This document shows positions 18,537 through 21,668 of a DNA stretch of 64,000 bases, one piece after another. How positions within the stretch are numbered: position 1 is the stretch's first letter; every line of letters starts with the position of its first letter. Position numbers and translations under genes: made by a program. The stretch spans positions 164,685 through 228,684 of the forward strand of contig NZ_KE383829.1 of NCBI RefSeq assembly GCF_000422425.1. The letters are read 5' to 3'. The notes below the pieces were generated by a model. That model had not been told where the DNA came from. It did not search any database and saw only the letters and a program-made list of their open reading frames with translations. Source of the DNA: Oceanospirillum beijerinckii DSM 7166 (GTDB lineage: Bacteria; Pseudomonadota; Gammaproteobacteria; Pseudomonadales; Halomonadaceae).

Positions 18537-19487
18537 ATGCCTAAACTGCTTCATGTTGCCGCTGCGGTAGTCACTAATGAAAAGGGTGAAATCCTTATCG
18601 CCCGTCGTCCAGCCACTGTCGATCAGGGCGGTTTATGGGAGTTTCCCGGTGGAAAACTGGCCCCTTATGAAACGGCGCGTCAGGCACTGTTCCGTGAACT
18701 GAATGAAGAGATTGGCATTGATGCACAATCTGCTTCCCCTTTGATTCGTGTGCACCACCAATATCCAGAGCGCCATGTCCTGTTGGATGTCTGGAGTGTG
18801 GAGCATTTTACTGGTGACGCCTATGGTCGTGAAGGTCAGGCAGTACGCTGGGTGAAACCTGAGGAGTTGAATCAGTACAGCTTTCCGGAAGCCAATAAGC
18901 CGATCCTGAAAGCGTTAAGCTTGCCAGATTACTATATGATCACTGGCGAGGCGGCTGATGAGCAGGCCTGGATAAATAAGCTGTCTAAGGCACTGGAGTC
19001 TGGTGTCCAACTGGTACAGCTTAGAGCCCATGAACTGGATGAAGAGGCCTTTGTTCAGCGTGCCCAACAGGCATTAGAGCTGACACGAGAGGCGGGTGCG
19101 CGTTTGATCCTGAATGCTGATCCATCTGTACTGGAGCGAGTGGATGCTGATGGTATTCATCTGACAACTGAGCGTCTGTCTCATTACTCCCAGCGTCCGG
19201 TCAGTAAGCAGAAATTACTATCATGTGCGTGTCATAATACATCACAGCTGGAAGAGGCTGCGGCTCTGCAGGCCGATCTGGTGACATTAAGTCCTGTCCA
19301 GGAAACGGAAAGTCACCCTGGTGTTGAGGCGATTGGTTGGCAGAAATTTAATGAGCTGATCGAAAAGCTACCTGTACCCGTTTATGCATTGGGTGGTCTG
19401 GGGCGTGCAGATATTCGTCGGGCTAAAGGTCTGGGTGGTCAGGGGGTTGCGGGTATTCGTGCCTTCTGGCCCCAGGAAAAAGCCTGA
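18537..19487 (+). CDS. mutT: Fusion of MutT Nudix hydrolase and ThiE-like domain
   Basis: The 316-residue product joins two domains. Residues 1-130 are a Nudix hydrolase; the Nudix box GX5EX7REUXEEXGU is complete (box residues run from GGKLAPYE to RELNEEIGI, about 37-59), as in the 8-oxo-dGTP pyrophosphatase MutT. Residues 130-316 resemble thiamine-phosphate synthase ThiE (VQLVQLRAHELDEEAF, LILNADPSVLE, VYALGGLGRADIRRAKGLG). The same fusion is known in Pseudomonas downstream of argJ. The ThiE half looks divergent and its activity is uncertain. The gene ends at a terminator. Confidence 0.92.
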   Translation: MPKLLHVAAAVVTNEKGEILIARRPATVDQGGLWEFPGGKLAPYETARQALFRELNEEIGIDAQSASPLIRVHHQYPERHVLLDVWSVEHFTGDAYGREGQAVRWVKPEELNQYSFPEANKPILKALSLPDYYMITGEAADEQAWINKLSKALESGVQLVQLRAHELDEEAFVQRAQQALELTREAGARLILNADPSVLERVDADGIHLTTERLSHYSQRPVSKQKLLSCACHNTSQLEEAAALQADLVTLSPVQETESHPGVEAIGWQKFNELIEKLPVPVYALGGLGRADIRRAKGLGGQGVAGIRAFWPQEKA

Positions 19488-20089: not shown

Positions 20090-20706
20090 TTATGATACCA
20101 GAGTCAGGTATGTTTTATGGAGATCATCACAGGCGTGTTGCAGGGCTGATAGGTCCTGATCATTGACGATAATATCATCTGCTCGTGCCCTGCGTTCCTC
20201 CCGGCTCATTTGAGCAGCAATAATCGCTTTAACCTGATCTTCGTTATTATTGTCTCGGGCACAGGTACGACTCAACTGTAGCTCGACTGGTACATCAATC
20301 AACAGATTTCTTTGGGTCATATCGGATTGCCCACTTTCAAACAGTAGTGGAGAGACCAGCATCGCGTAGTGCTCAGTGGGCTGTTGTAGCTGCTGGATAA
20401 TCTCTTCCCGAATAGCAGGGTGAGTGACCGATTCCAGCCATTGGCGCTCTTCAGGTTGCTGAAACACTGTTTGACGTAGCCAGGGCCTGTTCAGGCTTTG
20501 GTCTTCATTGATGGCCTCTGAACCAAAGTGGTTAACGATCTGCTGCCAGACCGGTTTATGAGGTTCAACAATCTCTCTGGCGACAACATCAGCATCGACA
20601 ATGAGGACGCCCAGACTGGTGAAGTAATCAGATGCGGCAGTTTTACCTGAGCCGATACCACCGGTCAGTCCGATGATTAGTGATGCTTTTTTTTTGTTTG
20701 AGTCAT
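20090..20706 (-). CDS. coaE: Dephospho-CoA kinase CoaE, expressed only through a frameshift near its start
   Basis: CoaE phosphorylates dephospho-CoA, the last step of coenzyme A synthesis, and is normally essential. The P-loop GLTGGIGSGKT, VDADVVAREIV, HPAIREEI and SPLLFE are all present, and the main frame is intact to the stop. That frame has no ATG, GTG or TTG between its upstream stop (20759-20761) and the P-loop. The only good ATG (20706) is one frame off: it reads MTQTKKKHH and then TAA. Between them lie nine A residues on the coding strand (20687-20695), ending in A-AAA-AAG. A -1 ribosomal shift or one extra transcribed A joins MTQTKKK to ASLIIGLTGG, giving 205 residues, the normal CoaE length. 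Alternatives are a CTG or AUA start, or a sequencing error in the homopolymer. The ribosome site before 20706 is weak. Confidence 0.88.
20686..20695 (-). promoter_or_regulatory. A9-G slippery site at the start of coaE
   Basis: On the minus strand the sequence is nine A followed by G. In the frame of ATG 20706 it is read as ACA-AAA-AAA-AAG, so the heptamer A-AAA-AAG is in the correct phase for -1 slippage, as in E. coli dnaX. After slippage the next codon is GCA, which is the CoaE frame. A possible stem (20647-20668, 7 bp with one bulge) lies 17 nt downstream, farther than usual for a stimulatory structure. An A9 run can also promote polymerase slippage. Confidence 0.6.
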
Positions 20707-20738
20707 AGTCAAATATCAGTCTATCTACAACCAGGCCA

Positions 20739-21668
20739 TTAAATAAACAGTGACTGCATCAGTCTCTGTATCGTGTCGGGAAAATATAGCACTAACCAAC
20801 CGGCAATAGCTAAAGCGGGGCCAAAGGGGATAGCGCTGCCAGGAGGTGATTTTTTAGTCAGGCGGAGTAGCAGTGCCATAACCAATCCTGACAAAGCGCT
20901 GATTAGCATAATCGGAGGTAAAGCAATCCATCCGGCCCAAGCGCCTATAGCCGCTAATAACTTAAAGTCACCATAACCCATACCCTCTTTTCCAGTCAGT
21001 AGTTTAAATAGCCAGTACACACTCCATAGCACCAGATAACCGGCCACGGCTCCCCATAAATAAAGATCCAACTGACTCTTATTGGTTACGCTATGGAAAA
21101 GTAAGCCTGCCCAGAGCAGTGGTATTGTCAGTGTATCGGGCAGTAGTTGGGTATTCAGATCTATCGTTAGAAGAGCCAACAGGCAGAGACTGACAGAGAA
21201 ATAGACGATAGCCTCCAAGGTAAAGCCAAACTGGACAGTACTAACCAGCGCCAGTGAACCTGCTAAGAGTTCTATCAGGGGATAACGCAAAGAGATGGTT
21301 GTTTTACAGTGGCGGCAACGACCTTTCAGCAGAAGAAAACTGATCAAGGGTATATTGTCATAAGGAGCAATCTTATGCAGACAATGGGGGCAATGAGATC
21401 CGGGCCAGGCAACATTGTAGCTTTCAGGTAGCGCTTCAGGTTCGGTTTGCTGCACATGTTTTTGGTTGAGTTGAGGCTGTGCGGACGTATTTGCCTGCAA
21501 GCTGTTATCAGCGAAAAGCATGCTCTCGCTTTGCCAGGCAGAGAGCTCATCCTGCCACTGTCGTTGCAGTATAATGGGTAGCCGGTGAATGACTACATTT
21601 ATAAAACTGCCCAGCGACAGGCCGAAGAGAAAAATAAATGGGTAAAGCAGGTTGAGATTTTCGCGCAT
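20739..21668 (-). CDS. pilD: Type IV prepilin peptidase / N-methyltransferase PilD
   Basis: PilD cleaves the leader of prepilins and N-methylates the new Phe1 in the inner membrane. The 309-residue product has the N-terminal segment GLSLGSFINVVIHRLP and a cytoplasmic zinc loop with Cys93, Cys96, Cys118 and Cys121 (CPHC, CRHC). The two catalytic aspartates are Asp170 in TIDLNTQLLPD and Asp234 in the GYGD motif, and several membrane segments are present. The variable loop (about 38-85) is longer than in some homologues. It follows pilC after 82 bases and precedes coaE. Confidence 0.95.
   Translation of the reverse strand: MRENLNLLYPFIFLFGLSLGSFINVVIHRLPIILQRQWQDELSAWQSESMLFADNSLQANTSAQPQLNQKHVQQTEPEALPESYNVAWPGSHCPHCLHKIAPYDNIPLISFLLLKGRCRHCKTTISLRYPLIELLAGSLALVSTVQFGFTLEAIVYFSVSLCLLALLTIDLNTQLLPDTLTIPLLWAGLLFHSVTNKSQLDLYLWGAVAGYLVLWSVYWLFKLLTGKEGMGYGDFKLLAAIGAWAGWIALPPIMLISALSGLVMALLLRLTKKSPPGSAIPFGPALAIAGWLVLYFPDTIQRLMQSLFI

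Follow-up and report, generated by a model that had tools for sequence, protein, structure and literature searches.

The coaE locus and its reading frames

The window, by which we mean the whole analysed stretch of 64,000 nucleotides from Oceanospirillum beijerinckii DSM 7166, contains on its minus strand a gene for dephospho-CoA kinase, coaE. We take the gene upstream of it to be prepilin-peptidase-like from the gene order pilB-pilC-pilD-coaE-yacG, and its stop lies 32 nt before an ATG at 20706. The following features are found around the 5' end of coaE:

20739 to 21668, minus strand: prepilin-peptidase-like gene upstream, in the position of pilD (from the list of open reading frames)
20704 to 20706, minus strand: ATG out of frame with CoaE, the probable counterpart of the coaE start of relatives (from the sequence and the start context of five genus relatives)
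20677 to 20706, minus strand: nine-codon reading MTQTKKKHH followed by TAA, in the frame of that ATG (from the sequence)
20687 to 20695, minus strand: run of nine A (A9), whose zero-frame codons together with G 20686 end in A AAA AAG (from the sequence)
20090 to 20695, minus strand: CoaE coding frame, from the tract to the stop (from the open reading frame and from profile and structure matches)
20672 to 20677, minus strand: two ATC codons in the CoaE frame, possibly a weak re-initiation site (from the sequence)
20657 to 20677, minus strand: possible weak hairpin of 8 bp that starts 8 nt past the heptamer (from fold prediction)

From 20758 down to its stop at 20090 the CoaE frame stays open (222 residues), and an in-frame TGA at 20761-20759 bounds it upstream. 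The first ATG, GTG or TTG within it is a GTG at 20467, 219 nt past the A9 run and deep inside the enzyme, in a gene that is conserved. The ATG at 20706 belongs to another frame, which reads ATG ACT CAA ACA AAA AAA AAG CAT CAC TAA, crosses the nine A at 20695-20687 and the G at 20686, and stops at the TAA of 20679-20677, a codon that shares one base with the first ATC (20677) of the CoaE frame. The slippery heptamer A AAA AAG is present in the zero frame of this ATG and, counted from the coordinates, either one extra A or a -1 slip on the heptamer leads to the same CoaE of 205 residues. In all of this the original prediction was right: the frame is open without an early start codon, the ATG runs out of frame through the tract to an early stop, the coordinates are correct, and a -1 slip or an added A restores the enzyme.

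The prediction that the frame holds a complete enzyme is likewise borne out. Pfam CoaE (PF01121) matches it over profile positions 1-178 of 180 (E 1.6e-65), the NCBIfam equivalog TIGR00152 scores 187.4 bits against a cut-off of 65.55, and the best match among solved structures is a dephospho-CoA kinase, PDB 1jjv (E 3.6e-50). Judged by these matches, the frame encodes an intact dephospho-CoA kinase with the full CoaE domain and its P-loop. It is the single coaE match in the whole assembly (5.3 Mb in 99 contigs), and a search of this 99.05% complete assembly found no second coaE. In a small tree the window's gene is placed beside its genus relatives and not among them, on a branch of 0.257 compared to 0.13-0.48 for the nine other genes, and against all nine relatives the differences are fewest at codon position 2 and most at position 3. 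No decay was seen, as there are no stops in the frame, the branch length is normal and the codon-position bias is kept; together with the completeness and the single copy, this suggests that coaE was functional at least until very recently. A freshly inactivated gene, in a bacterium that a host supplies with coenzyme A or an intermediate, or that has a substitute enzyme we missed, would fit the broken frame and the lone copy, and a very fresh break would look just like what we see, but with no trace of decay we find this reading barely credible.

On the other side of coaE, at 18537-19487, a 316-codon ORF lies between argJ-like and yacG/coaE-like genes. We take it to resemble a MutT-type hydrolase fused to a thiamine-phosphate-synthase-like domain, and the names of its neighbours are likewise our assumption.

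Start codons in relatives and recoding at the tract

The 5' ends of coaE were taken from 69 loci, namely the window's gene, 57 other genomes and 11 named records, and two of these were left out (L149, which gave no motif and whose fetched stretch seems to end within it, and L036, which is cut by a contig end). The relatives were scored by the presence of an in-frame ATG, GTG or TTG near the P-loop motif LTGG, with a limit of 20 codons and on the understanding that a start in frame is no proof of its use. All 66 readable relatives have such a start 3 to 21 codons before LTGG, and in 56 of them it is ATG; in 65 it lies 3 to 20 codons before the motif, and L038 has a GTG at -21, just past the limit. 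The window's coaE is alone among the 67 readable loci in having no in-frame start. Just upstream of LTGG, an A run of eight or more occurs in one readable relative, L032, where it is in frame.

The five genus relatives all have an ATG at -9 relative to LTGG. An added A would put ATG 20706 in frame at -13, so that a start near the matching position is indeed what the relatives have, although that of the genus is four codons closer to the P-loop. The start context in the window, GACTATG, resembles those of the genus, such as CACTATG in L003, and Shine-Dalgarno pairing is weak both at ATG 20706 (-2.3 kcal/mol) and at the genus starts (-1.5 to -5.4). The in-frame starts of the relatives and the similar contexts in the genus together suggest that ATG 20706 is probably the inherited coaE start. 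Among the genomes examined, the break is private to the source genome. The original prediction had named ordinary in-frame starts in relatives as something that would refute it, and such starts are present in 66 of 66 readable relatives.

Another way to keep the enzyme without any slip would be to start it at a rare codon, CTG 20719, ATA 20716 or CTG 20734, or to re-initiate at ATC 20677 or 20674 after the TAA. In many relatives the start codon is four or five codons away from LTGG, and a short N-terminus would therefore be enough; the overlap of TAA and ATC resembles the known coupled stop-start junctions of TAATG type. CTG, ATA and ATC are however poor start codons, an ATG is present near the position where the relatives start, and the predicted ribosome binding is weak (-1.2 to -4.8 kcal/mol), even if it is no better at ATG 20706 or at the genus starts. 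Rare-codon starts are, like a dead gene, among the less likely explanations, and we think this one improbable.

The heptamer sits in the correct frame for a -1 shift, and the similarity to dnaX of E. coli that was originally pointed out holds to the extent that A AAA AAG stands in the zero frame at both sites. No Shine-Dalgarno-like stimulator is found upstream of the heptamer (-1.9 kcal/mol), and the break occurs in none of the 66 readable relatives, whose ordinary starts mean that coaE is not a conserved programmed frameshift. The downstream hairpin is predicted at -9.5 kcal/mol in a 30-nt window. A 21-nt window that was chosen post hoc and covers most of it (20678-20658; -7.6) is matched by 3.0% of 3000 synonymous recodings and ranks 6th of the 67 loci, whereas the 42-nt fold is average, with 24% of 3000 synonymous recodings as good and a rank of 29 among 67, and a 77-nt fold has a z of -1.32 and is equalled by 22 of 200 shuffles. 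The modelled evidence for a hairpin is thus weak. The coaE site further differs from that of dnaX in lying within the first seven codons, and in that the shifted frame would give the sole functional product. Programmed -1 ribosomal frameshifting that regulates CoaE in the manner of dnaX is not supported, and we regard it as very improbable.

Frame accuracy and homopolymer runs in the assembly

The frame accuracy of the assembly was checked by comparing 388 kb of the source genome with the ORFs from 400 kb of one relative, G004. Of 132 homologous places, 117 were covered to at least 80% in one frame, and the CoaE identity to G004 (64.4%) falls below the median of these 117 (78.3%), with 20% of the places lower still. 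Two of the 113 places that could be tested at their 5' end have no upstream in-frame start. One is coaE, and the other, presumably a protease-like gene, has an in-frame ATG further downstream, which leaves coaE as the sole unexplained start-less gene among the 113 tested 5' ends in 388 kb. The assembly therefore looks frame-accurate, and no widespread frameshift errors were seen in the 388-kb sample. The reverse comparison gave one start-less place out of 115 in G004, and three split matches were judged by eye to be antisense, run-on or out-of-frame readings. The feature at coaE is real in the record, and it is exceptional in the source genome.

The whole genome of 5.3 Mb has 207 runs of A8, 24 of A9 and one of A10 or longer, and the corresponding counts in five other genomes of the genus are 163-321, 20-53 and 0-7. 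A general truncation of homopolymers in the assembly was rejected on these counts, which match those of the genus. Runs of ten or more A are very rare across the six genus genomes (0-7 each) compared to exact A9 (20-53). Instability of the run through loss of mismatch repair was rejected as well, since mutL and mutS are both present, open and over the cut-off. Within the 388-kb sample there are three A9 runs besides that of coaE, each inside an intact ORF with a homologue. When all 24 A9 runs were inspected, 12 were found to lie within or to close an open frame that has an upstream start and is 100 codons or longer, and a break at the run was found in coaE and possibly in an orphan gene in L120, both with the sign of one missing A. 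The same pattern of break at runs of A6-A8 was seen for 7 of 392 runs in the sampled stretches of the source genome and for 16 of 377 in those of G004. Most of these cases have a start codon no more than 70 nt past the run, the exceptions being one in the source genome (191 nt) and three in G004 (114 nt, 328 nt and none). Further loci, namely L096, L103, L109, L110 and L123, were flagged by a looser scan of 56 tracts that covered the source genome and five relatives; their downstream frames have just 51-95 codons, and L096, L103, L110 and L123 appeared ordinary or noncoding on viewing.

In L120 (586-1967 of contig C16), a lipoprotein-like ORF of 158 codons ends at the A9 run and is followed by an ORF of 293 codons with a TTG start, in the neighbourhood of RelE-like and YafN/Phd-like ORFs. 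Neither of the two ORFs has a Pfam match up to E 1, their one NCBIfam match is far below the cut-off, and a search of 195 other genomes gave no match to the longer ORF. This is possibly one gene broken with the same sign as coaE, and it may equally be two genes.

Two runs of G were noted as well. A G8 run at 2944-2951 of the window lies in an ORF of 477 codons that aligns with its G004 homologue over 440 residues, and the run is possibly a tract of variable length; a G10 run at L062 7951-7960 (contig C2), in a 248-codon ORF for which the 400 kb of G004 offered no homologue, is a candidate phase-variable tract. A search of viral contigs for a variant of the A9 tract gave no match, and neither did a search of the assembly for 16S. 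The search for a lysine tRNA, which bears on how readily the ribosome would slip on AAG, gave a single pattern match that is not a tRNA, and none within the 20 sampled stretches.

Slippage or a missing base

If the nine A are real, CoaE could be made by slippage of the polymerase or the ribosome. Translation would start at ATG 20706, RNA polymerase would add one A in a share of the transcripts, and occasional -1 slips of the ribosome would help; the tract would then be a recent, tolerated homopolymer frameshift and no programmed switch. The sequence has what such a rescue calls for, a run of at least nine A or T at the break and a frame that is otherwise intact, and the accurate frames of the assembly and the lack of a second coaE fit with it. 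Slippage in E. coli is efficient at nine A or T, and in dnaX of Thermus a nine-base run is described as giving about 50% full-length product (PMC5009743). Homopolymer indels in runs of 3-8 bases are reported to be bypassed to functional protein, and an A8 frameshift to be tolerated under selection (PMC3812077). Insertions during transcription grow exponentially with run length in another study, which detected no frame-restoring error (PMC5574713). In Blochmannia vafer, eight genes including dnaG and pth have homopolymer frameshifts that according to the authors are maybe corrected by slippage (PMC3017870), and poly(A) tracts are stated to cluster at the 5' ends of genes and to vary in length (PMC2831843).

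These systems are similar to coaE only up to a point. In Blochmannia and Buchnera, too, a long A run has gained or lost a single base in a gene that is needed and otherwise intact, but both have small, AT-rich genomes, and those of Blochmannia have 114-153 coding poly(A) tracts of at least nine (PMC3017870), compared to 24 A9 runs in 5.3 Mb here. Thermus thermophilus dnaX has, like coaE, a nine-base A/T run, which there gives mixed transcripts and may do so here, and its full-length product comes from the unslipped frame, whereas that of coaE would come from the slipped one (PMC5009743). The poly(A) length variants are alike in that one A near the start of a gene switches the frame (PMC2831843), while coaE is a housekeeping gene. 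A GeneTack survey lists a cluster named "DNA glycosylase / Dephospho-CoA kinase", for which it considers both translational coupling and frameshifting possible; to judge by its name it joins two genes, an arrangement unlike that of coaE here (PMC3711429). Our literature search found no report of a homopolymer frameshift in coaE, and none that joins coaE, frameshift and slippage.

Slippage is disfavoured by the break being found in the source genome alone and in none of the 66 relatives, by a genome that at 5.3 Mb and 46-48% GC in the sampled stretches is not that of a reduced AT-rich symbiont, and by the two open mismatch repair genes. The essentiality of CoaE had been taken to make a dead gene unlikely, yet it is no proof of slippage, because the loss of frame could be very recent or an error in the consensus. 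What stands of the original prediction is that a rescue specific to this genome is plausible; it is not conserved, and we rank a shortfall in the record above it. We hold the slippage reading as a serious though tentative one, and its strict form, in which a large-genome gammaproteobacterium of moderate GC makes its sole CoaE by slippage and depends on infidelity for its coenzyme A, seems to us rather unlikely.

The explanation that we favour, with moderate confidence, is that one A is missing from the record and that coaE is an ordinary gene, which raises to first place a missing base that the original prediction had listed as an alternative beside a correct anatomy. The gene would start at ATG 20706 (MTQTKKKASLIIGLTGG...), close to the start of its relatives, and entry from this codon would give a peptide that spans TQTKKKASLIIG. 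The A run would have been recorded one base below its in-frame length, making the frame appear broken. The likeliest single cause would be that the assembled consensus dropped a base which all or most of the cells still have; their run would then be one A longer, and coaE would need no recoding. We infer that the record rather than the genome falls short from the in-frame start of every readable relative (66 of 66), from a coaE that is single, complete and free of decay, and from a tract that is among the longest A runs of the 5.3-Mb genome, where 24 of A9 and one longer run were found; length errors are likeliest in the longest homopolymer runs. A missing base would also agree with other surveys. 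Isolated frameshifts confirmed by BLASTp are expected in the GeneTack study to be sequencing errors and not genuine indels (PMC3711429), and in M. smegmatis sequencing errors are given as the reason for 28 of 73 interrupted genes (PMC1852416). What speaks against it is that the assembly is otherwise frame-accurate where it was sampled, and that its homopolymer counts are normal for the genus.

Either way, the case of coaE is of a known kind, a single-base frameshift in a homopolymer. Should the record lack a base, the case would serve as a warning that a single homopolymer base can make annotation miss the start of an essential gene. If the nine A are real, the range of frameshifts rescued by slippage would reach beyond endosymbionts with reduced, AT-rich genomes and take in an essential metabolic gene in a large genome of moderate GC, and gene callers may be discarding some living genes as broken.
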